The notes under the pieces: generated by a model
Seen by the model: the letters and a program-made list of their open reading frames with translations, nothing else
Told to the model about the DNA's origin: nothing
Database searches by the model: none
Part shown: positions 14,130-47,025 of the stretch, piece after piece
How the letters are laid out: each line of letters begins with the position of its first letter
Position numbering within the stretch: the stretch's first letter is position 1
Program-made: the position numbers and the translations under genes
NCBI GenBank assembly: GCA_947627995.1
Contig: CANQYE010000007.1
Location: 1-52,158 of the forward strand
DNA from: an uncultured Bacilli bacterium
GTDB lineage: Bacteria > Bacillota_I > Bacilli_A > RF39 > UBA660
Direction: 5' to 3'
Length of the DNA stretch: 52,158 nt

Positions 14130-15074
14130 TTAATATACTTGCAACTCAGTAAATATATTTTTGATTACTTCTAATGTTTCTTTTATTTCATTTATTGTAA
14201 ATTTTGAACTCTCGTCTAAAACATAAGTATCTTGCATTTGATTAAATGCTCTAATTAAACTTATATTAAATTCATTATTTAAATAATGAAAATCTTTTAT
14301 TTCAACATTACTTTTAATTCCTCCGTATCTTAAATTTTCTTCCTCTCTTTCATAAGCAATTATTTTTTCTAATTCTTGCTTATTATTTAAAAATTTCTTT
14401 ATTACTTCTTCTTTCATTAAAATATTTAAATCGTATATGTGTTTTGCAACATCATAATATTGATCTTTTAAATAATAATGCTCTGCTGCAAATATTTTAT
14501 CCATAAATATTCGTTCTAGTTTTACAATTTCTATTTCAAAATCAGATATATCATAAATATCTTTTAATATTTGCTTTTGTTCTTCTGAAGCATATTTATA
14601 AATTAATGGTTCAATAGTATATTTAGATATTGGTTCACTCACAGTAAAAGAAGTGGCTTCTATTTGAATCTTACCTGCCTTAAACAATGCTGATAAGCTA
14701 AATAAAGAATCATATTCAAAAAAAGAAATAATACTATCTTTATCTATTTTCCGTTGTTCCTCAATAAGGATTAAACCATCAATATTATACCCATAAGCAG
14801 CATCTTTTAGTCTTTTTCTATTAAAATTTTTAGATTCTTCTTTATCTACTCTTACAGTCAAATCAATATCTTCGGAAAAACGTACCATTTTATCAAGTAT
14901 CTTATATAAAGCTGTGCCCCCTTTAAAATATGCTGGTAAATTATTTTCTCTTTGTTTTCTAGAAAGATCTTTTAATATTAGACAAACATAATAATCTTTT
15001 TCTAAAATTTCTTCACTAATACCAGATATTTCACTTACTTCTATTATTAATTCTTCAAGTATTTCCCTGCTCAT
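14130..15074 (-). CDS. AbiEii/AbiGii-type nucleotidyltransferase toxin
   Basis: This 314-residue protein belongs to the AbiEii (COG2253) nucleotidyltransferases. YFKGGTALYK near residue 50 is the GGT-type motif, and SEDIDLTV near 70 gives the metal-binding DxD; charged motifs near 190-200 complete the fold. AbiEii toxins arrest growth, in studied cases by modifying tRNA 3' ends, and are neutralised by the AbiEi partner in phage defence. AGGAGG overlapping the antitoxin stop precedes its ATG, so the two are coupled. The target here is unknown. Confidence 0.9.
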   Translation of the reverse strand: MSREILEELIIEVSEISGISEEILEKDYYVCLILKDLSRKQRENNLPAYFKGGTALYKILDKMVRFSEDIDLTVRVDKEESKNFNRKRLKDAAYGYNIDGLILIEEQRKIDKDSIISFFEYDSLFSLSALFKAGKIQIEATSFTVSEPISKYTIEPLIYKYASEEQKQILKDIYDISDFEIEIVKLERIFMDKIFAAEHYYLKDQYYDVAKHIYDLNILMKEEVIKKFLNNKQELEKIIAYEREEENLRYGGIKSNVEIKDFHYLNNEFNISLIRAFNQMQDTYVLDESSKFTINEIKETLEVIKNIFTELQVY

Positions 15075-15082
15075 TTTTCCTC

Positions 15083-15718
15083 CTATATTAAATCATATAA
15101 TATATCCACTGCTTTTTTATTATTAGTTTCTTTAGCGTATTTAAATATTTTTTCATAATTTAGTTTGTTTTGTTTTATAAAATCTTTAATAATAACACTT
15201 GCTTTTCTTTTTTCAAATTTTATTTTTTCTTTATTCTCTAAAACATCTAATAATTGTAAATATAAGTAATTATTATTATTTATCTTTATTTTTGGTTTTT
15301 TAATACAAACATTAAGTTTGGCAATCCTACATTTATTCTTATTTGGACATGCATTTGTAATTATTAAAACATCTTTTGGCACTTGTGTCGTAAGACCAAG
15401 CTTATTATATAAATATGCTCCTGAATAATATCCATTTATTCTTTTATTATTATATAAATATTTTTTTCTAATTATTTTACTTTTATTTAATGACTTAGGA
15501 CCCAAAATACCAGTTTTAGGTTTATAATAAATTCCTTTTTCGTAATGTTTAATAATATTATTTTTTTCTAATCTGTTTATATATACATTTAAACTTTTCA
15601 AATTAACATTTTCATTCGTAGATTTTTTTTTAAAATACTCTTGAATTTCTTTAGTTGTTATAGGTTCACCATCAGGATATTTACTAATAAATTTAATTAA
15701 ATAATCTTTATAATTCAT
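15083..15718 (-). CDS. AbiEi-like antitoxin / transcriptional regulator (DUF6088 type)
   Basis: The 211-residue protein has an N-terminal winged helix (about 1-65, with an EPITTKEIQEYF helix and EKGIYYKP wing) followed by a C-terminal domain with GYYSGAYLYNKLGLTTQVP, the usual form of AbiEi/DUF6088 antitoxins. It precedes its toxin by 8 bases. AbiEi proteins repress their own operon through inverted repeats, and such a repeat lies in the promoter (15733-15779). Family membership is clear from order and motifs; the antitoxin activity is inferred. Confidence 0.87.
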   Translation of the reverse strand: MNYKDYLIKFISKYPDGEPITTKEIQEYFKKKSTNENVNLKSLNVYINRLEKNNIIKHYEKGIYYKPKTGILGPKSLNKSKIIRKKYLYNNKRINGYYSGAYLYNKLGLTTQVPKDVLIITNACPNKNKCRIAKLNVCIKKPKIKINNNNYLYLQLLDVLENKEKIKFEKRKASVIIKDFIKQNKLNYEKIFKYAKETNNKKAVDILYDLI

Positions 15719-34844: not shown

Positions 34845-35771
34845 TTATTTTTTTAATTTTAAATAAAATTTTAAATTTAAATTAATAATAATTTTTTTTA
34901 ATTTTCTTACAATATTATTTGCTATAATATCATTTAAAATACCATTTTCTTTTAATATTTTTTGATATTTTTTAAAATCTTCTTTATTTAATACTCTGGC
35001 TTTCTCGATTGCACAATTAGCAATAAAACTTAAAAACAATTCTTTATTTTGAGGATTATAATTTAAAATTTCTTTTTTCATTCTAATTGTAGCATTTATA
35101 ACATCAAAGCACTTCTTTTTTTCTTTTTCATAATCCCCTTTACTCATAATACTACCTTTACGGATAGCATAATTATATCCTAAATAATCAATACTGCTTA
35201 CAGATTTTGCTTTCATTAAAATTAAAGGAGTTAATGCAAAATCTTCATGATAAATCCCTTTTGTAAATGCAAAGTTATTGTTAAGCCAAAATTTTCTGTT
35301 ATATACATAAGCCCAGCTATTTTCTACAAAATGATATTTACATATTATAGAAAAGGCATCATAACCTGTTAAATTATTAAATTCTTTTTCATGATATTCT
35401 ATTACATCATTATTATAAATTTCTTTTATTTGATAGCGTAGCACATCTATATCTTCTTTTAAATTTTTATCAATTACTTCCAAAAAATCTTGGTCAATAA
35501 AATCATCACTATCTACAAATATTAAAAATTTTCCAGTAGCATTAAGAACTCCTGTATTTCTTGCAGAACTTAAACCCTCATTTTTTTGATATATGTATTT
35601 TAACTTTTTAGTTAAATAACCTTTGATAATTTTCTCAGAATTATCAGTTGATCCATCATTAACAACAATTATTTCATAATCTTTTATCTTTTGTTTTAAA
35701 ATACTATCTAAACATTTTTTTAAATATTTTTCAGTATTATATACTGGCACTATAAAACTATATTTAATCAT
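34845..35771 (-). CDS. Glycosyltransferase family 2
   Basis: The 308-residue enzyme has SFIVPVYNTEKYLKKCLDSIL, VNDGSTDNSEKII and the metal motif FVDSDDFID near residue 90. I choose the ATG at 35771 because GAAGGAG precedes it; the longer start at 35798 adds nine basic residues and has no site. It overlaps the upstream polymerase-GT4 gene by 8 bases, so the two are coupled. It closely resembles the GT2 at 9615. It probably adds one sugar to the wall polymer repeat. Confidence 0.9.
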   Translation of the reverse strand: MIKYSFIVPVYNTEKYLKKCLDSILKQKIKDYEIIVVNDGSTDNSEKIIKGYLTKKLKYIYQKNEGLSSARNTGVLNATGKFLIFVDSDDFIDQDFLEVIDKNLKEDIDVLRYQIKEIYNNDVIEYHEKEFNNLTGYDAFSIICKYHFVENSWAYVYNRKFWLNNNFAFTKGIYHEDFALTPLILMKAKSVSSIDYLGYNYAIRKGSIMSKGDYEKEKKKCFDVINATIRMKKEILNYNPQNKELFLSFIANCAIEKARVLNKEDFKKYQKILKENGILNDIIANNIVRKLKKIIINLNLKFYLKLKK

Positions 35772-38055
35772 TTTTTTCTCCTTCAAAAATTTCTTCAAGA
35801 ACTTTAATTTTTTTTCTTTCTAAAAAATCAAAATCAACTGATTCATATTTTAAATTATCATGTTTAATTATTTTTTCAACATCAGTAAAAATTGTTTTTT
35901 CATTTACAATAAAACCAAAACGATTTTTTAAAGAAAAATAATCATCACTTATATCTAAAGTGGAAATAATTTTTTTTGACATAACAATAGCTTCTAAGAA
36001 AACAACTGGAAAACCTTCATTTTTAGACGTTAAAATAATATAATCTGCTTTTTTCATATATGGATAAGGATTAATCTTTGCCCCAACTAAAATTATTTTC
36101 TTTTCAAGTTTTTTACTTTTTATTAAAGAACGATAAAAATTTTTATCAATACCATCACCGATGATCCATAAACTTGAGTTTATTCCTTTTTTATTTAAAT
36201 AATCTATTAAATTAATTATTATTGATATTCTTTTTGTTTTTTCTTCTAGTCTACCAACAAAGACAAATAACTTTTCCTTAGATTTTTTCTTTAAATTTAT
36301 TTTTTTATTTGAATCATTAACAATTTTTTTATAATCAAAGAAATTGTTAATAACTATACTTGTTTTCTCTAGTTTTGGATAAATACTAATTAAACGCTTA
36401 CGTGATTCATTCGAAACAAAAATAACCTTTTTAAATTTTAAAATTGCTCGATGATTAAAAAAATCTTTAACTTTATCAATATCATTAAAATCCAATACAT
36501 AATCACCATGAATATATATAGAATTATTTTTAGAAGCTATTCTTGATATTTTACTACCTAAAAGAGAATAGGTTGCAAAGCAACATGAAAAATTATATTG
36601 ATTATAATTTACAATCGTAAAAATTATTCTTTTATATAAATTAATTAATTTTCTTATAAAAATATTTTTATTATGTGAAAGTTTATAATCAATAATTTTT
36701 ACATTATTATTTATTTTTTTAACTAAAGGCCCTTTTTTTTGTTCTAATAATAAAGTAACAGAATATTTATTATAATCAATCTTATCAAGCAAATTAACTA
36801 ATGCACTTTCAATACCACCAATACACATATCATTCGCAGTAAAAATTAATTTTTTCTTAGCGCATCTTTTTGGTTTAACAACAAATATCAAACAAACTAA
36901 TAATGATACAGAAGGAGCAACTAAAACATGCCCTACAACAAAACTAGTAAGAAAGCACATTATTATTGTTAAAATTATCGGTAAATTTAAATCATTTTTT
37001 TTAAAACCATACCTAAAAACAGTAATTATAGGTATTATAAATAATGTAAATCCTATAACTCCTAGATGATAAAAAACATCAAAGAAATCCATTTCTATAG
37101 TTTTATTTACAATAGAGTAACCTATACCAAATAGTTTATTTAAAAAACTACTATTATTAAAAACAATTGCTACATTAGATAAAAATTTCAATCTACTTCC
37201 TAAAAAGAAATGATCAATATTTTTAAATGTTAATAAATCCTTTAAATGTTTAATATGTAAATATTCTAAATGCACAATAGTATTTTTATAAATAGGGGTC
37301 TTAGGGATCATTAAAAAAGATACTAATATGGTAATAATTCCAAAACTTAAAATTAAAATTAAGGATAACTTTTTATTCCTTTTAAATAATTTTATTAAGT
37401 AAAATATGCCATAAGTTATAATAGTTAATCCCAAAGAAATTAGTGGTGTTTTTGTCCCGATGGAAAATATTGTAACGATGAATATTAATAATAATATTAT
37501 ATTAAAAACATTAATCTTCTTTAAAAAATAATAGAAAAGAAAAGGAATTAATATTGCTATGATACAACTTATTTCATTAGCAGCATTAAAAAAGCCCAAT
37601 TTTCCCAGTTTAGTTATTTCATAACTATTAAAAGCATGTCCGCTTAAATTACCAAATAATATTAAAAATATATATGTAAATACGTAAATTATTAAATATT
37701 TTTGATTCATTTTAATTGGATTATCTTTATTAATAAAAAATAAACTGATTAACATAATAGGAAAATAAAATATTTTTAAAACCCAACTTATTTCATAAAA
37801 TAAATTGTTTTTAAGGAGTAAAAGATATATTCCTAAATATATTGCTATCAAAAAAAGATACAAAATATAAAAATATTTATATTTAAAATTTTTAATAGTA
37901 TAAAAAATAACAAATATTAGAAAAATAAGTCTTGATATCATCCCAATAGTTATGCTTATATTTGCATGGACCATTAATGAAGTAAACAAATCAATAAATG
38001 GTGAAAGCAATAAAAAAATAATTAAAATTTTGTTAAAATCTATTTTATGTTTCAT
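35764..38055 (-). CDS. Fusion: O-antigen polymerase/ligase-like membrane domain + GT4 glycosyltransferase
   Basis: Residues 1 to about 394 hold 10-12 membrane helices, with an outer loop (about 250-325) containing GSRLKFLSN and GIGYS...DVFYHLGVIGF, in the style of Wzy/WaaL proteins. From about 400 a complete GT4 enzyme follows: KLIFTANDMCIGGIESALVNLL, FVFVGRLEEKTKRI, WIIGDG and SKNEGFPVVFLEA. Such proteins are usually separate. AAGGTGA just ahead of the ATG overlaps the stop of the TagO-like gene. The fusion would tie sugar addition on the inside to polymerisation or transfer on the outside. Confidence 0.88.
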   Translation of the reverse strand: MKHKIDFNKILIIFLLLSPFIDLFTSLMVHANISITIGMISRLIFLIFVIFYTIKNFKYKYFYILYLFLIAIYLGIYLLLLKNNLFYEISWVLKIFYFPIMLISLFFINKDNPIKMNQKYLIIYVFTYIFLILFGNLSGHAFNSYEITKLGKLGFFNAANEISCIIAILIPFLFYYFLKKINVFNIILLLIFIVTIFSIGTKTPLISLGLTIITYGIFYLIKLFKRNKKLSLILILSFGIITILVSFLMIPKTPIYKNTIVHLEYLHIKHLKDLLTFKNIDHFFLGSRLKFLSNVAIVFNNSSFLNKLFGIGYSIVNKTIEMDFFDVFYHLGVIGFTLFIIPIITVFRYGFKKNDLNLPIILTIIMCFLTSFVVGHVLVAPSVSLLVCLIFVVKPKRCAKKKLIFTANDMCIGGIESALVNLLDKIDYNKYSVTLLLEQKKGPLVKKINNNVKIIDYKLSHNKNIFIRKLINLYKRIIFTIVNYNQYNFSCCFATYSLLGSKISRIASKNNSIYIHGDYVLDFNDIDKVKDFFNHRAILKFKKVIFVSNESRKRLISIYPKLEKTSIVINNFFDYKKIVNDSNKKINLKKKSKEKLFVFVGRLEEKTKRISIIINLIDYLNKKGINSSLWIIGDGIDKNFYRSLIKSKKLEKKIILVGAKINPYPYMKKADYIILTSKNEGFPVVFLEAIVMSKKIISTLDISDDYFSLKNRFGFIVNEKTIFTDVEKIIKHDNLKYESVDFDFLERKKIKVLEEIFEGEKND

Positions 38056-38058
38056 ATC

Positions 38059-39108
38059 TCACCTTTTTTTCTTTTTATGTTCGAATAAGATATCAGTTTT
38101 TATTATAATAAATATTAAGGCAATTGTTATCAAAATATATAAAACAATAGCGACTTCTGCTGCTTTTAAAACATATAAAATTGAAATTAACGCAAAAATA
38201 CTATTCATTAAATATATAATTAAAACTGTTTTAGTCGTAGATTTATTAAGTTTTAATAATTGATGATGTAAATGTTCCTTATCAGGTTTGCCAATTGGTT
38301 CTCCTTTTAAAAGTCTTCTAAAGAAAGCAAGTAGTGCATCAGTTAAAGGAATAGCTAATAAGGCTAATGGTACAATTAATGATGTAAAAGTAACATTTTT
38401 AAATCCAAGCAAAGCTATAACTGAAATTATAAAACCTAAAAATAAACTACCTACATCCCCCATATATATACGAGCAGGTGGAAAATTATAAACTAAAAAA
38501 CCTAAAGTAGATCCAAGCATTATTAAGGATAAAATTGTATCTAATCCTTGAGCTTGATTTAAAATAAAAGATATAATTGCAATCGTTAAAAAATAAATAG
38601 AACTAATTCCTGATGAAAGTCCATCTAATCCATCAATTAAATTTATTGCATTAATTATTACTAACATAAATATAATTGTACATATATAATTTAGTGGTGT
38701 AATAAAATGAAGATTTATACCAAAAAAACTTAATTCATTGATATAAATTTGGCCATAAAATACAACTATCGCTGATGCTATTGCTTCAACTAATAATTTA
38801 TATTTAGCTTTAACTGGATTAATACCATCAACAATTCCTATAAAAATAATTAAAATACTTCCCATTAATATCGATAGCATTTGCGTTAAACTTTTAGCAT
38901 ATAGCATATATCCAAGTAAAAATGCGAAAAATATAGCCATACCGCCTAAAGTAGGCATATTTTTTTTGTTAAGTCTTCTTTTATTAGGCTTGTCAATTGA
39001 ACCAATATGAAAAGCAACTTTTCTGATAATTGGCACCATTAATGCTGATGCAATAAAAGTCACAATAACTATTAAAAATACATTATGCCCATTAACACTT
39101 ATATGCAT
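38059..39108 (-). CDS. Undecaprenyl-phosphate GlcNAc-1-phosphate transferase (TagO/WecA/MraY family)
   Basis: This 349-residue enzyme has about ten helices. It has KPNKRRLNKKNMPTLGGMAIF at the first cytosolic loop, NLIDGLDGLSSG (the catalytic DGLDG region), YMGDVGSLFLGF and the basic PIGKPDKEHLHHQLLKL loop of the WecA/TagO branch. It attaches GlcNAc-1-P from UDP-GlcNAc to undecaprenyl phosphate, starting wall polymer synthesis. It is the first gene of its operon, with TATAAT at 39129-39134 and AGGAG upstream. It is not MraY, given the HHxLL loop and the context. Confidence 0.93.
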   Translation of the reverse strand: MHISVNGHNVFLIVIVTFIASALMVPIIRKVAFHIGSIDKPNKRRLNKKNMPTLGGMAIFFAFLLGYMLYAKSLTQMLSILMGSILIIFIGIVDGINPVKAKYKLLVEAIASAIVVFYGQIYINELSFFGINLHFITPLNYICTIIFMLVIINAINLIDGLDGLSSGISSIYFLTIAIISFILNQAQGLDTILSLIMLGSTLGFLVYNFPPARIYMGDVGSLFLGFIISVIALLGFKNVTFTSLIVPLALLAIPLTDALLAFFRRLLKGEPIGKPDKEHLHHQLLKLNKSTTKTVLIIYLMNSIFALISILYVLKAAEVAIVLYILITIALIFIIIKTDILFEHKKKKR

Positions 39109-39221: not shown

Positions 39222-40643
39222 TTATTTATCCCATTCTTTTAATTTTTTACTATTGCTTTTACTTTTTTTTGCTAATTTTTTAATCTCATCCTGTTTAATT
39301 TCTACAGTATCGTCCCCTTTACCTTTTGTTTCTTTTACTTCCACTTTCTTTCCTTCAACATTATTTTCATTACTTTGTTTTTTTCTATTACGTTTATCTT
39401 TTTTAGTGGCCATAATAAGAAATAATATAAATAATAATACACATCCACCAATAAGGATTTCAATCAAAAATTTAGAATCTTTTAATTTTTTATTTAAATT
39501 ATTTATTTCTTCATCATTATATCTTTGTAAAGTTTCTTCTACTTCATCATACATATACCAGTTTTTTTCGCCAGTTTCTAAATTAATTCCATAGATTAAA
39601 GAAAATTTTGATTTACTATTCATTTTATAAGCAGTAACATTTTTCTCACCTATTTTAATAGTTGTAGCAAAATATCCTTCTGGTGCATTTTTAATATTTG
39701 TTTCAACGATAGAAATATAATTTGATTTTACTTCTTTGTATTCATTAAATTCATCTTTTTTCGCATCATAAATATATAAACTAACTACACCTTTGTCATT
39801 TTTTAGACCAACTAAAGTAATATTTGCTTTTTTATTATATAATGCTGGTATATCTTGGTCACTCATTTTAATTGTTGTTTGTTCAAATCCATCTGGTGCA
39901 ACTAACATAGAAGCTTTTTTAACAATTGTAAGACTTTCCCCATTTAAATTCTTTTTAATTGGATTACTATCAATAATATTAACATTAATCATATATGTTT
40001 TTTTATTCCCACGTTGACTGATTACATCAATATTAATTTTACCATTTAATTCATTTAAATTAATTTCTCCAATTCCTGTAATTGAAGCGCGACCGTCTTC
40101 CTTTTCAGCGGTTACAACAATTTTTTCAACACTTTCTTCTACATTAACTGTATACTCTAAAGTATCCTTATTAAATTCCGGAGTCAAACTATAACCTTCA
40201 ACTCCTAAACTTTTTAAATAATTATTATCACTTAAAGATGCTAGTTGTTCTTCTTTAGTTATAACCTTAATAGTTTTAGAAGCAGTAGGATAAGCTCTAC
40301 TTTCATCATCTAATACAATATTGCTATTTTTAACTGTAATAGTAGCATTACCACTTGATTTTACTTTATAACTAAATGAATAAGAGTAAGATGATTTACC
40401 ATAGCATTTGTCATCTAACTGAATAGAAGAGCCTGGAACATTAAAATTACTTAACGCTACATCGAAAGTACAGATACCTAAAGTAGACCCACTTGCTCTT
40501 AAAGTTACAGTAAATTTAACAGTTTCGCCTACTACAGCTGATGATGGCCCGGAAATACTTGCAGATACATTACTCGCTTGAGCTGTTATTAAAAAGAGCA
40601 CACTTGTAAAAAAACCAAATAAAATATACTTTACTTTTTTCAT
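39222..40643 (-). CDS. Membrane-anchored surface protein with possible cohesin-like and cadherin-like beta-sandwich domains
   Basis: The 473-residue protein has a signal peptide (1-28) and a beta-rich domain (about 29-130) opening with SGPSSAVVGETVKFTVTL. A cadherin-like beta-sandwich (about 137-222, NNYLKSLGVEGYSLTPEFNKDTLEYTV) comes next, then an extracellular region, one helix (about 390-411) and a 60-residue Lys-rich cytosolic tail. The first domain has the look of a cohesin or a bacterial Ig-like fold; I cannot separate these by eye. It is 8 bases downstream of a dockerin-bearing glucosaminidase, which makes a cohesin worth testing. AGGTGA precedes the start. Confidence 0.85.
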   Translation of the reverse strand: MKKVKYILFGFFTSVLFLITAQASNVSASISGPSSAVVGETVKFTVTLRASGSTLGICTFDVALSNFNVPGSSIQLDDKCYGKSSYSYSFSYKVKSSGNATITVKNSNIVLDDESRAYPTASKTIKVITKEEQLASLSDNNYLKSLGVEGYSLTPEFNKDTLEYTVNVEESVEKIVVTAEKEDGRASITGIGEINLNELNGKINIDVISQRGNKKTYMINVNIIDSNPIKKNLNGESLTIVKKASMLVAPDGFEQTTIKMSDQDIPALYNKKANITLVGLKNDKGVVSLYIYDAKKDEFNEYKEVKSNYISIVETNIKNAPEGYFATTIKIGEKNVTAYKMNSKSKFSLIYGINLETGEKNWYMYDEVEETLQRYNDEEINNLNKKLKDSKFLIEILIGGCVLLFILFLIMATKKDKRNRKKQSNENNVEGKKVEVKETKGKGDDTVEIKQDEIKKLAKKSKSNSKKLKEWDK

Positions 40644-40651
40644 GTTATCAC

Positions 40652-42232
40652 CTAACTAATTGTTATGATTCCTAAGATATGTTTTTTTATTCTTAACATA
40701 TCAATTGAATCAACACTACCATCTTTATTAACATCTGCGGCAGTCAAATCATTTCCGCTAAGAACAGAAACACCTAAAATATGTTTTTTTACTCTTAACA
40801 TATCAATAGCATTTATTTCATTATCACCATTTAAATCGCCATATCTTATATTAGAATTTACATTATTTTGCGAGCTACTTTGACTATTTGCAGAACTTTG
40901 ACCGTTATCAGATACAGAATTATTAGTACCAGCATTGGTTGAAACACCAGCAAAAATAGATGCAAAATAAGTTTTAGATGGCATGTTATTATATACTGGT
41001 ATTTTAAATTTGTATGAAATATTTTTATAATTATTTATTTTTTTATAAGCATTATATGCTTTGCCGCCTTCAGTAGCTGCAGCTTGAACATTTTGCATAT
41101 ACTGATGGCTATAATATTTTGGCCCAACAATATCAAATTTTTGTGAATATATTATATCTTGTCCGACATTTATATATCCATCTGCTATCCATTCTGCTCC
41201 ACCATTAATAGCTTTATAAGGCGTATTCCAAGGTCTTCCATAAGAAGTGCTATTATTAGTATATCCTTGTGCATAATAAAGCCCATTTTGAACTGCAGTT
41301 CTACCATTAGAAGCTGTTGAATAAATATTATAATAATTGTAGTATCCTTCATAACCGGAAACTCTTCCACTAATGCTATTTCCAGTTCCATTTATTCCTT
41401 GTTCTTGAATAATGCGAGAAGCTAGATGATAAGGAGAAATTCCGTTATTTTTTCCAGCATAGAAGATAGCGTTTGCATAACTAACATCATTCCCATTATT
41501 ATCTTTAATATTTTGGTTATCCATAAATGATGAAGCAATCATATTTTTAACCCCGTCTTCAGTATGGGAAGAGCTATATGATAATTGTTCAAATTGAAAT
41601 ACATATTTTTCATTCAAAAAATTTCTAGGATCCATAAAATATTTAATCATATCTACATTAGCAGCATACCAATTAGGAGCTTCATAAATAGTATTTGGAT
41701 CAATAGGATTTTTCCAACCCTCTTTATTATTATCAGTTATTTGAATATAATTTTTTTTAAGATAAGATTCCTCTGTAATTGAGTTATTCCAATCTAAGCC
41801 TGTATTAAAAGCCTCAAAACTAGCATTAGGATAAACAGAATGCAAATATTTTATAAATGGCTTATAACTATCAGGGAATGCATTTAGTTGACTCGCAAAA
41901 CTAGCATCAGTTGAATAGTCAGATGATACCGAATATGTTGTTAAATTTTTTGAGCAAACATAACCAATTTTATTTTCTTCATAATAAACTTGATACCATC
42001 CTGAAGAACAACCATTAGTTCCATATTTATTTGTTGAAACTAATCTAACAGACGATGCAATTGGCAAACTTGCCACTTTATCCCCAGTTTTAGCGCTTCT
42101 ATTAATAGCTAAATTATCACTTTGATTGTTATACCCATAAATTGTTAAGCTTTCAGCCTTTACAGGGATTAAATTTACAAAATAAGTAGATACTAAAAGC
42201 ATAATTAAGCATACATTAATTATTTTCTTCAT
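40652..42232 (-). CDS. Secreted endo-beta-N-acetylglucosaminidase with SH3-like and dockerin domains
   Basis: This 526-residue exported protein has a signal peptide (1-27) and a bacterial SH3-like domain (about 30-100). A GH73/LytD-type glucosaminidase domain follows (about 190-390, PYHLASRIIQEQG carrying the likely catalytic Glu), then a Ser/Asn-rich linker. It ends in two dockerin repeats, DLNGDNEINAIDMLRVKKHI and DVNKDGSVDSIDMLRIKKHI, each a calcium loop plus helix. It cuts peptidoglycan glycan strands. The ATG at 42232 is chosen with GGGTGG ahead; the TTG at 42244 lies inside that site. It is co-transcribed with the beta-sandwich protein. Confidence 0.92.
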   Translation of the reverse strand: MKKIINVCLIMLLVSTYFVNLIPVKAESLTIYGYNNQSDNLAINRSAKTGDKVASLPIASSVRLVSTNKYGTNGCSSGWYQVYYEENKIGYVCSKNLTTYSVSSDYSTDASFASQLNAFPDSYKPFIKYLHSVYPNASFEAFNTGLDWNNSITEESYLKKNYIQITDNNKEGWKNPIDPNTIYEAPNWYAANVDMIKYFMDPRNFLNEKYVFQFEQLSYSSSHTEDGVKNMIASSFMDNQNIKDNNGNDVSYANAIFYAGKNNGISPYHLASRIIQEQGINGTGNSISGRVSGYEGYYNYYNIYSTASNGRTAVQNGLYYAQGYTNNSTSYGRPWNTPYKAINGGAEWIADGYINVGQDIIYSQKFDIVGPKYYSHQYMQNVQAAATEGGKAYNAYKKINNYKNISYKFKIPVYNNMPSKTYFASIFAGVSTNAGTNNSVSDNGQSSANSQSSSQNNVNSNIRYGDLNGDNEINAIDMLRVKKHILGVSVLSGNDLTAADVNKDGSVDSIDMLRIKKHILGIITIS

Positions 42233-42252
42233 ATTACCACCCAATTCTTAAA

Positions 42253-42417: not shown

Positions 42418-44019
42418 ATGATTCTTTTTAAAAAACTTAAAAAAACTAATAAATTATTATTAGTCTTATTTATAGTATTATCCTTAGCTTATATAGTGAG
42501 TTATGCTTTTTTAGCAAATAGTATTTTAAATTTAAATGGAATAGAAACTTTAATACGTGTAGTAAGTCTTATCAGTTTATTTATTATTTTTTTAGTTTAT
42601 ATTTTAGTAGGACTTATTTGTTTAATAACAAAGCATCACAAAATTATGATCTTTATTTTGTTATTTATTTCTATCATGATACCATTATTTATTTTTGCAA
42701 GCTATCACATTGATAAAACTCTTAGTAAACTTGATAAAGTTAGCAAAAATGAAATATTATATACTACCAATTTAATAGTTTTAAAAGGTAATAAAATTAA
42801 TAACACTTCAGATGAAAAAATTGCAATGATTAAAGATGAACAAGATATTGAAGGATATGTTATTGCCAAAAAACTTATCGAAAAAGAAAAATTAGATAAT
42901 ATACAAATTAAATACTATGATGATTATTTAGATATGATTGATGCATTATATACTAAAGAAGTTGATGGAATATTAGTTTCTAGTAATTATTCTATATTAT
43001 TTTCTAATGAAGAGGAATATGAAAATATTCAAAATGAAACATCTGTGTTATTTACTTATAGTGAAAAAAGAGAAAATGAAGATAAAAAAACAGTTAAAAA
43101 TTCGAAAAAACTTACTGAACCATTTACTATTTTGTTAATTGGAGTAGACTCCGAAAAAGAAACAATGAACGCTAATCAAGCTTTTAATGGAGATACTTTA
43201 ATGTTAATAACATTTAATCCTAAAACTTTAAATGCCGTTGTGTTTTCTATTCCAAGAGATACATATGTTCCTATTAGTTGTAGAAAAAATGCACAAAACA
43301 AAATTAATTCATCTGCATATGGAGGAACTTCTTGTGTAATAAATACTATTCAAAATTATACTGGTATTAATATAGATTATTATGTAAAGATAAATTTTAA
43401 AGGTGTTGTTAATCTAGTCGATGCATTAGGTGGAATTACAGTTGATGTTGGATTTAAGTTTTGTGAACAAGATTCAAATCGAGAATTTGGAGAACATGAA
43501 ATTTGCTTAAAAAAAGGTGTTCAAGAATTAAATGGAGAGCAAGCTTTAGCGTTTTCTAGGCATCGTAAAACTCTGCCTTTAGGCGATTTCCAAAGAGTAC
43601 AAAATCAACAATTAGTAGTAGAAGCAATTGCTAAAAAAGCAACTGAAATTAATTCCATTAATAAATTTTATGCAGTGTTGGATGCAATAGCAAATAACAT
43701 CGACACTAATATGGAAAAAAAGCAAATGTTAAGTTTTTATGAAGTTGCCAAAACTATGCTTAACAAAATTTCTAATAATGAAAATAATTTCTTTACTATT
43801 GAAAAAACATATCTAACAGGATCTGATAAATCAATTAATGGTGCTTATACATTTCAAGCCTCTAAAGAAAGTTTAAATGATATTGTTAATGCTTTGAAAG
43901 TTAACTTAGAAATTAAGAAACCAGAATTAATAAAAACATTTAATTTTTCTGGACAAAAAGAATACGAAAAAAGAGTTTATGGTAAAGATTTAATAAAATC
44001 TAATAAAACTTCTAAATAA
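42418..44019 (+). CDS. LytR-CpsA-Psr (LCP) family wall-polymer ligase
   Basis: The 533-residue protein has three N-terminal helices (about 13-33, 43-65, 75-95), an extracellular accessory region (about 105-225) and an LCP domain (about 235-440). LCP motifs include LLIGVD, NGDTLMLITFNPK, FSIPRDTYVPI, KINSSAYGG, NFKGVVNLVDALGGI and AFSRHRK with the catalytic/phosphate-binding arginines. LCP enzymes move undecaprenyl-linked polymers onto peptidoglycan, so this is the probable last step for the polymer made at 22891-39108. It is a single-gene unit with its own promoter and terminator. Confidence 0.94.
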   Translation: MILFKKLKKTNKLLLVLFIVLSLAYIVSYAFLANSILNLNGIETLIRVVSLISLFIIFLVYILVGLICLITKHHKIMIFILLFISIMIPLFIFASYHIDKTLSKLDKVSKNEILYTTNLIVLKGNKINNTSDEKIAMIKDEQDIEGYVIAKKLIEKEKLDNIQIKYYDDYLDMIDALYTKEVDGILVSSNYSILFSNEEEYENIQNETSVLFTYSEKRENEDKKTVKNSKKLTEPFTILLIGVDSEKETMNANQAFNGDTLMLITFNPKTLNAVVFSIPRDTYVPISCRKNAQNKINSSAYGGTSCVINTIQNYTGINIDYYVKINFKGVVNLVDALGGITVDVGFKFCEQDSNREFGEHEICLKKGVQELNGEQALAFSRHRKTLPLGDFQRVQNQQLVVEAIAKKATEINSINKFYAVLDAIANNIDTNMEKKQMLSFYEVAKTMLNKISNNENNFFTIEKTYLTGSDKSINGAYTFQASKESLNDIVNALKVNLEIKKPELIKTFNFSGQKEYEKRVYGKDLIKSNKTSK

Positions 44020-45246: not shown

Positions 45247-47025
45247 ATGAAAAAATTATTAGTTGTTTTAGCATTAATATTTGCAATTTTTGTAGTCACA
45301 AAGGTAGAAGCAAAAGAAACTTTTAAAGAAGGAGACTGGATTTCAAATATCTATATAAAAAAAGAAAAAAATGGAAATTCTAAATATCAACAATCAAGAT
45401 TTATATTAAGAAATAGTGATAATCATTTTGTATATTGTATAGAACCATGGGTACAATTTGATAGAAATCAAGAATATGATAATTTTGAATATGTAACAGA
45501 AATATCTAGCGAACAAATCCAAAATATTTCTTTGATTGCATATTATGGATACGGCTATAAAAATCACACCGAAAATAAATGGTATTCAATTACCCAAGTT
45601 ATGATTCAAAGAGAAGCAGATAAGGATGGAGAAGTATATTTTACAGACAAACTTAATGGCCAAAGAGTTGAAAAATTTACTAAGGAAATAGAAGAAATTG
45701 AAAATTTAGTCAATACGCACAAAAAACAGATTAAATTTAATAGTAACAATATTCATTTAATTAAAGGAGGCAAAACAACTATAAATGATGAAAATGAAGT
45801 ATTAGAAAACTATGATTTGCAGTATGATTCTAACAATTTTAAAATAAGTAAAAATAATAACGAACTAAGTATTGAAGCACTAAATTCTGGAGAAGTAAAT
45901 ATCAATTTATTAAAAAAAGATACAATATATAATACTTCACCTATAGTTTATAAATTAGATAATTTTCAAAATCTTATTAGTGTTGGTAAATTTCCAGAAA
46001 TGAAAACCAGTATTAAAGTTAGTGCTACTCCAGGAGAAATAATTGTTAAAAAAGTTGATTCTGATACATTGTCATGCCAAACTACTGGCGAAGCAAGTTT
46101 ACATGATACTACTTTTGATTTATATAATAGTAATGATGAATTAATTGAAACTGCCAAAATTGATGAGAATTGCATAGTTAATTTTAAAGACTTAGGTTAC
46201 GGAAATTATTACATTAAAGAAAGTAAAAGTGGAAAAGGATATAAAATCGACAATAATAAATATGAGATTTCATTGACAAATAATACTATTTCAAAAGAAT
46301 TGACTATTAAAAACGAAGTATATAAATCCAAAATTATTATTCATAAAAAATATGGTAATAAAAAATTAAATAATTATACTGACGAGGAGGGAATTATTTT
46401 TAATATTATTAATAATAGTGGAAAAATAATTCAAACAATTACAACTGATAAAAATGGTGTGGCCTCAGTAACTTTACCATATGGAACATATTATATCGTT
46501 CAAGTTAATAGCAAAGATAATTATGAAAAAATAAAAGATTTTAAAATAGTAATAAATGAAAACACTTCAAAAACTATTGAATATGAATTAAATAATTATG
46601 AAAAAACAGGAAATATTAAAATTTTAAAATTAGATAAAAAAACTGGAAAACTAATTGTAAATAATCGAGCTACTTTTAAAATATTTAATTTAGATACAAA
46701 TGAATACGTTTTAAATGAAAATGGAACAAATATTTTTAAAACTAATAAATCTGGGTATATTGAAATAAATAATCTCAGTTTTGGCCATTATGAAATTATT
46801 GAAACATGTCCACCTAAAGGTTATAATGTTGCAAATGAAAAAATTTATTTTGAAATAAATAATGAAAACTATAACAATAATCAAGAAATTATTATAAAAA
46901 ATGAAAAAATTATTTTACCAAAAACTGGTACAGAAAAAAAAGATATGTCTAATTTTATTAAATTATTTATTCTAATAACTTTTATAATATCTACAATAAT
47001 ATTAATAAAATTTAAAAATATATAA
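45247..47025 (+). CDS. LPXTG surface adhesin with thioester domain and three SpaA/CnaB-type domains
   Basis: The 592-residue protein has a signal peptide (1-22) and a thioester (TQXA) domain with Cys64 in VYCIEPW and Gln116 in YSITQVMI, able to form a Cys-Gln thioester that binds host amines. Three SpaA/CnaB-like stalk domains follow (about 258-350, 353-445, 455-555), then LPKTG with a hydrophobic helix and short tail for sortase. Domains 1 and 3 keep the isopeptide Glu (YYIKES, YEIIET); domain 2 has Gln at that place (YYIVQV). No sortase gene is in the window. AAAGGAG marks the start. Confidence 0.93.
   Translation: MKKLLVVLALIFAIFVVTKVEAKETFKEGDWISNIYIKKEKNGNSKYQQSRFILRNSDNHFVYCIEPWVQFDRNQEYDNFEYVTEISSEQIQNISLIAYYGYGYKNHTENKWYSITQVMIQREADKDGEVYFTDKLNGQRVEKFTKEIEEIENLVNTHKKQIKFNSNNIHLIKGGKTTINDENEVLENYDLQYDSNNFKISKNNNELSIEALNSGEVNINLLKKDTIYNTSPIVYKLDNFQNLISVGKFPEMKTSIKVSATPGEIIVKKVDSDTLSCQTTGEASLHDTTFDLYNSNDELIETAKIDENCIVNFKDLGYGNYYIKESKSGKGYKIDNNKYEISLTNNTISKELTIKNEVYKSKIIIHKKYGNKKLNNYTDEEGIIFNIINNSGKIIQTITTDKNGVASVTLPYGTYYIVQVNSKDNYEKIKDFKIVINENTSKTIEYELNNYEKTGNIKILKLDKKTGKLIVNNRATFKIFNLDTNEYVLNENGTNIFKTNKSGYIEINNLSFGHYEIIETCPPKGYNVANEKIYFEINNENYNNNQEIIIKNEKIILPKTGTEKKDMSNFIKLFILITFIISTIILIKFKNI

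Follow-up and report, generated by a model that had tools for sequence, protein, structure and literature searches.

A candidate one-to-one cohesin-dockerin pair for tethering a secreted glucosaminidase to the membrane in small-genome Bacilli

Two adjacent genes of the window, the 52,158-nucleotide stretch of DNA analysed here, very probably form an operon whose products make a private, one-to-one cohesin-dockerin complex that holds a glucosaminidase at the membrane for peptidoglycan trimming. The arrangement and the domains of the two genes are far beyond chance, and the cohesin-dockerin pairing is strongly supported by sequence comparisons; beyond the pairing, we infer physical binding, its calcium dependence, the tethering geometry, the substrate, the localisation, the phenotype and an involvement in the growth or turnover of the wall. 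A preliminary description of the locus had suggested that such a pair tethers a peptidoglycan hydrolase to the membrane. This suggestion gains support from the cohesins of orthologous anchors, gene adjacency, covariation, class switches and co-loss of the two modules.

Domain structure of the enzyme and its anchor

The upstream gene (40652..42244; all features of the pair lie on the minus strand) encodes a secreted glucosaminidase with a C-terminal dockerin, 530 aa long when counted from the TTG at 42244; the likelier start is the ATG at 42232, the TTG lying four codons upstream. A signal peptide (42155..42232), read from the translation, is followed by an N-terminal SH3-like wall-binding domain (41942..42145), for which the SH3_3 match is weak in the window copy and above the cut-off in orthologues. 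The catalytic domain (41030..41680) is matched at residues 189-405 by the NCBIfam SagB model (E 1e-10, below the cut-off of that equivalog), and aligns with the SagB/Atl glucosaminidases PDB 6fxp, 6u0o and 6fxo (E 1e-7 to 1e-6). In the PDB alignment the general-acid Glu of SagB/Atl corresponds to Glu281 (ASRIIQEQG; codon 41402-41404), and the homologous domain together with this conserved Glu assigns the enzyme to the LYZ2/GH73 type (SagB/Atl group). Read from its translation, the enzyme itself has neither a membrane anchor nor a sortase motif.

A Ser/Asn linker connects the glucosaminidase domain to the type I dockerin (40673..40843). The two dockerin repeats noticed in the preliminary description were confirmed as complete calcium-binding repeats: residues 468-524 match Pfam Dockerin_1 (PF00404) over its full profile (1-57) with an E value of 3.5e-18, and the C-terminus matches solved dockerins in the PDB with E values down to 4e-10. 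Both calcium loops, read directly, are intact (D470-x-N-x-D...N478..D481 and D504-x-N-x-D...D512..D515). The recognition helices are INAIDMLRVKKHILG and VDSIDMLRIKKHILG, with positions 10, 11, 13, 14, 17, 18 and 21 occupied by A479, I480, M482, L483, K486, K487 and L490 in repeat 1, and by S513, I514, M516, L517, K520, K521 and L524 in repeat 2.

The anchor gene (39222..40643) starts 8 bases downstream of the glucosaminidase gene, and a search for a terminator-like site between the two found none. Its product is a single-pass membrane protein of 473 aa with a signal peptide (40572..40643), which in the DNA sits between dockerin and cohesin, and three outer domains. These are a divergent cohesin domain (residues 26-132; 40248..40568), recognised through orthologue profiles and models, a Cadherin-like beta-sandwich domain (PF12733; 39978..40217; E 9e-7), and a third domain of ~160 residues outside known families (39492..39968). 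A transmembrane helix (39411..39479), read from the translation and corresponding to a conserved hydrophobic block, leads to a basic cytoplasmic tail (39225..39410). A signalling or binding role had been suggested for this tail. Since its length varies from 0 to 173 residues across anchors and its sequence is not conserved either, a signalling role is unsupported. The third outer domain, which has no Pfam family, is conserved in three of the class's families (loci L346 and L348) and persists in anchors that have lost the cohesin, as an uncharacterised wall-related domain; the existence of such anchors, with this domain kept, means that the anchor must have a further job. A second small membrane protein of the genome (G000:C27:502-810, L152) has a domain of the Cadherin-like type and a C-terminal transmembrane helix, lacks a cohesin, and is encoded next to a secA-like gene.

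Pfam Cohesin (PF00963) does not match the N-terminal domain of the window anchor, and single-sequence Pfam and PDB searches with this domain found no cohesin. The same domain is matched by Pfam Cohesin in 40 of 82 orthologous anchors (best E 1.6e-8, another 1.1e-7), and a profile of 16 anchor sequences retrieved PDB structures of cellulosomal cohesins, the best at E 1.2e-4, its other weak matches being mostly antibody chains aligning at the signal-peptide end. The AlphaFold model of the window domain is a beta domain of ~105 residues (pLDDT 83, pTM 0.75), for which Foldseek gave an ambiguous result, ranking CARDB first and cohesins of Clostridium perfringens fourth and seventh. For the model of one orthologue (L089), built with its dockerin, ranks 1-11 were all cohesins. 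As domains of the relatives match cohesins by Pfam, profile and fold, we regard the cohesin identity as well supported; by homology and modelled fold, the first domain of the window anchor appears to be a shortened, divergent cohesin, whereas the window copy taken alone would only perhaps be called one.

The proposal in the preliminary description that this domain could be a cohesin gains its support from the orthologues and not from the window copy, which Pfam misses and for which CARDB ranks first; a plain Ig-like fold, the counter-reading named there, likewise remains relevant in part, to the window copy alone. Structure prediction of domain and complex, proposed at the same time, returned a cohesin-like orthologue domain and no pose for the complex. 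The fused dockerin-cohesin model of L089 folds well with a pTM of 0.57, a value at which the docking pose is not established; in its chain the stop that separates the dockerin from the anchor is read through, the frames matching there by chance, and reading stops as Gly is a modelling device that carries no biological claim.

We consider it very unlikely that the anchor begins with a simple Ig-like spacer as its first outer domain, with the dockerin binding some other partner or acting only as a stabilising calcium module and the two genes co-transcribed for other reasons. The Pfam and CARDB results for the window domain would fit a spacer, but in the orthologues both sequence and fold identify this domain as a cohesin.

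The genome of the window (969-kb assembly, 94% complete) contains exactly one dockerin, according to the search for other dockerin proteins that had been proposed beforehand, and no second cohesin was detected in this assembly by Pfam or by the anchor profile. With one dockerin and one recognisable cohesin, the genome encodes a private 1:1 pair and no cellulosome; the combination of a multi-cohesin scaffoldin with several dockerin enzymes that characterises cellulosomes was not found in this genome.

Conservation, covariation and exchange of the two modules

Patterns derived from the Cadherin-like region of the anchor were used to retrieve 80 loci from named genomes, a choice that is therefore blind to the upstream gene. 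In all 81 loci, including the window, a dockerin gene lies immediately upstream on the same strand, at a spacing of -31 to +25 bp. After addition of further loci from the family of the window, the dockerin gene is directly upstream in 229 of 232 sampled loci, all selected on the anchor. The anchor occurs at E <= 1e-40 in 242 of 386 genomes of the family, and the same arrangement is present in two other families of the class. The named relatives are uncultured gut Bacilli, termed 'Mollicutes/Tenericutes' in older titles, and the host of the window may belong to GTDB order RF39. The possibility that relatives would lend the pairing no support is clearly false, given this adjacency and the covariation and co-loss described below.

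The three exceptions (L253, L266 and L282) belong to one genus (g67), in which a glucosaminidase with many SH3 repeats and no dockerin adjoins a cohesin-like anchor. They represent a natural loss of the plug, the dockerin having perhaps been replaced by SH3 wall binding. A genus that keeps the gene pair without the dockerin would also be compatible with an Ig-like spacer; that reading is contradicted by the observations that dockerin change tracks only the first outer domain of the anchor, and that dockerin and first outer domain are lost together.

Covariation was analysed by partial Mantel tests on 204 non-redundant dockerin-anchor pairs. Corrected for the other two domains of the anchor and for the enzyme, dockerin and cohesin distances gave a partial r of 0.617, as compared to 0.134 for the largest of 999 permutations; the permutation p-values ignore the tree, and the argument lies in the contrast with the internal controls. 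In the same sample, partial r of the dockerin was 0.02 with the Cadherin-like domain, 0.04 with domain 3 and 0.11 with the enzyme carrying it, and r with the signal peptide of the anchor was 0.01-0.03 (0.014 in one test). Inside the dominant recognition class alone, dockerin and cohesin still correlated with r = 0.525.

Among the strongest 100 residue couplings between dockerin and anchor, 99 involve the cohesin, against an expectation of 30. On the dockerin side, coupling is strongest at 14 positions, namely 10, 11, 13, 14, 17, 18 and 21 of repeat 1 and the same seven of repeat 2; they include, as in cellulosomal dockerins, the classical positions 10-11, which are published specificity determinants (PMC8063739). 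Variation concentrated at the recognition helix positions is also what is seen in type I dockerins. That the coupling pattern is two-fold may point to dual binding, or to no more than the internal duplication. Published cohesin-dockerin complexes use the 8-3-6-5 sheet of the cohesin (PMC5429695). The cohesin-side couplings at C58, G56, F60, Y92 and V110 were not taken as contacts; by simple counting of strand alternation C58 would point into the core, so that the signal at this residue may reflect class switches.

The dockerin and cohesin segments are neighbours in the DNA, separated by ~80-150 bp with the signal peptide counted in, and recombination of one contiguous block could make them covary without any specificity code. 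This explanation appears extremely improbable: the signal peptide, lying between the two, does not covary with the dockerin, which argues against exchange of a block, the couplings cluster at the recognition positions in repeat 1 and repeat 2 alike, and GH25 dockerins coded elsewhere carry the glucosaminidase code of their genome.

A specificity code shared by dockerin and cohesin is further indicated by natural swaps. Dockerins with a DYV helix occur with 'AGKFSIT' cohesins at five PF01832-glucosaminidase loci and at L143, which has the enzyme type of the window; likewise, 'NSADLLxMRQHL' dockerins occur with 'AAWNI' cohesins at three loci and at L117, which has the other enzyme type, and 'KHIW/KHLW' dockerins pair with 'WDYAT/WSYTM' cohesins. 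At L109, DLLQ is changed to DLAQ in both dockerin repeats, and the facing cohesin segment from IGSW to PMISW. Judged from these sequences, the recognition code follows the cohesin and not the catalytic domain. In two distant genomes (G539 and G550) the anchor begins directly with the Cadherin-like domain, the genome contains no dockerin, and a glucosaminidase upstream of the anchor was not found; as read from these sequences, dockerin and cohesin have been lost together.

Two genomes of one genus (G521 and G610, family f13) encode, elsewhere, a second dockerin protein, a GH25 muramidase. Within each genome its dockerin helices match those of the glucosaminidase, with DYIRIKNYIMG in one case and VDYVRxRNYLD in the other, which is what a receptor shared by the two enzymes would lead one to expect. 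A second enzyme sharing the dockerin code was seen only in these two genomes. The idea of the anchor as a general receptor for many dockerins was rejected: where a genome of the family has several dockerins, the additional ones belong to TasA-like and other exported proteins and have unrelated recognition helices. In relatives, dockerin-like repeats are inserted within exported proteins resembling TasA/camelysin (L307-L312 in G044; L323, L324 and L325), and their recognition helices are unrelated to the glucosaminidase dockerin.

Proposed function, known systems and significance

In the proposed mechanism, glucosaminidase and anchor would be co-expressed and exported, the glucosaminidase being secreted free. 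Its dockerin would fold on calcium and then plug into the distal cohesin of the membrane anchor, so that the docked enzyme could swing freely in the space separating the membrane from the wall, the zone in which nascent strands emerge, and trim the glycan strands of peptidoglycan. Transpeptidases and Mur ligases are encoded in the genome, so there is a wall for the enzyme to cut.

The pair is flanked by a gene for a divergent LCP-family wall-glycopolymer ligase (42418..44019, plus strand), found in the flanks of 41 of 81 relatives' loci, and by a gene for a GT4/WecA-MraY-like sugar-phosphate transferase (38059..39108, minus strand), found in 23 of 81. The LCP and wall-polymer flank pointed out in the preliminary description is thus real but not universal, and it fits wall building. 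Elsewhere in the window, a surface protein (45247-47025, plus strand) that contains a thioester domain and three SpaA repeats besides an LPKTG sorting-type signal is likely to be a covalent adhesin or pilin; in one frame (35764-38055, minus strand) a GT1 glycosyltransferase domain is fused, unusually, to a membrane domain of O-antigen-ligase-like type; and an AbiEii-type nucleotidyltransferase gene adjoining a DUF6088 gene (14130-15718, minus strand) forms a probable type IV toxin-antitoxin or abortive infection pair.

A real pair might alternatively serve attack or scavenging, displaying a wall-cutting enzyme outward instead of remodelling the cell's own wall: display of the cellulosome type classically serves nutrition, and the hosts inhabit dense gut communities. 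We consider this alternative unlikely. The anchor is in the membrane rather than in the wall or S-layer, which puts the enzyme beneath the wall of its own cell; in half of the relatives, genes for LCP and glycopolymer proteins occur in the flanks; the nearest catalytic relatives are autolysins; and in the two examined genomes with a second such enzyme, that enzyme (GH25) is also a wall hydrolase. Trimming of the cell's own peptidoglycan thus remains the preferred reading.

Like cellulosomal pairs of type I and type III (C. thermocellum, R. flavefaciens), the window pair combines a dockerin of duplicated calcium loops with a probable cohesin beta-sandwich. In contrast to cellulosomes, it comprises one cohesin and one dockerin, with no scaffoldin, carbohydrate-binding module or plant-polysaccharide enzyme; it is anchored by a transmembrane helix instead of SLH domains or a sortase, and its cohesin is shorter and divergent. 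In R. flavefaciens, the NlpC/P60-X-dockerin protein RflaF_05439 is bound by the ScaE cohesin (PMC3573020). As proposed for the window pair, a putative wall-type hydrolase is carried there at the cell surface through its dockerin, which binds one anchored cohesin. However, RflaF_05439 has a dockerin of the X-dockerin type, is a peptidase of unproven substrate and does not belong to a dedicated operon pair, while ScaE is sortase-anchored and serves a whole cellulosome.

SagB of S. aureus has its own transmembrane helix and a polytopic partner. Its catalytic domain (with SpdC; PDB 6u0o) is homologous to that of the window glucosaminidase and is also held at the membrane, whereas the window enzyme would be tethered via dockerin and cohesin; by analogy of architecture, the window pair may be seen as the non-covalent equivalent of glucosaminidases that are tethered to the membrane, such as SagB. 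The cohesin folds closest to the models of the window and orthologue domains are the cohesin-like modules of C. perfringens (PDB 2jh2, 2w1n, 2vo8), whose use is non-cellulosomal, as here, but on secreted glycoside hydrolases and not on a membrane receptor. The modules and the enzyme families are thus known, and the nearest precedents are RflaF_05439 on ScaE and, functionally, SagB-SpdC. In the literature searched, which was mainly open-access, we found neither an earlier report of this glucosaminidase-anchor pair nor a single membrane-anchored cohesin that is dedicated to a wall hydrolase and conserved together with a private code that drifts.

The pair would move the best-known enzyme-docking module from fibre digestion into the bacterium's own wall biology, in hosts which, with genomes of ~1 Mb, keep little. 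It seems fairly likely that small-genome gut Bacilli and related families dock wall hydrolases on a dedicated membrane receptor by means of a fast-drifting, lineage-private cohesin-dockerin code, a wall-growth module predating or paralleling the cellulosome and comprising hundreds of natural orthogonal pairs. The few hundred single pairs, with co-diverged recognition surfaces, would provide a natural library that could help to read the cohesin-dockerin code and to engineer it, and they raise the testable question of whether tethering limits where, and how far, the glucosaminidase cuts.
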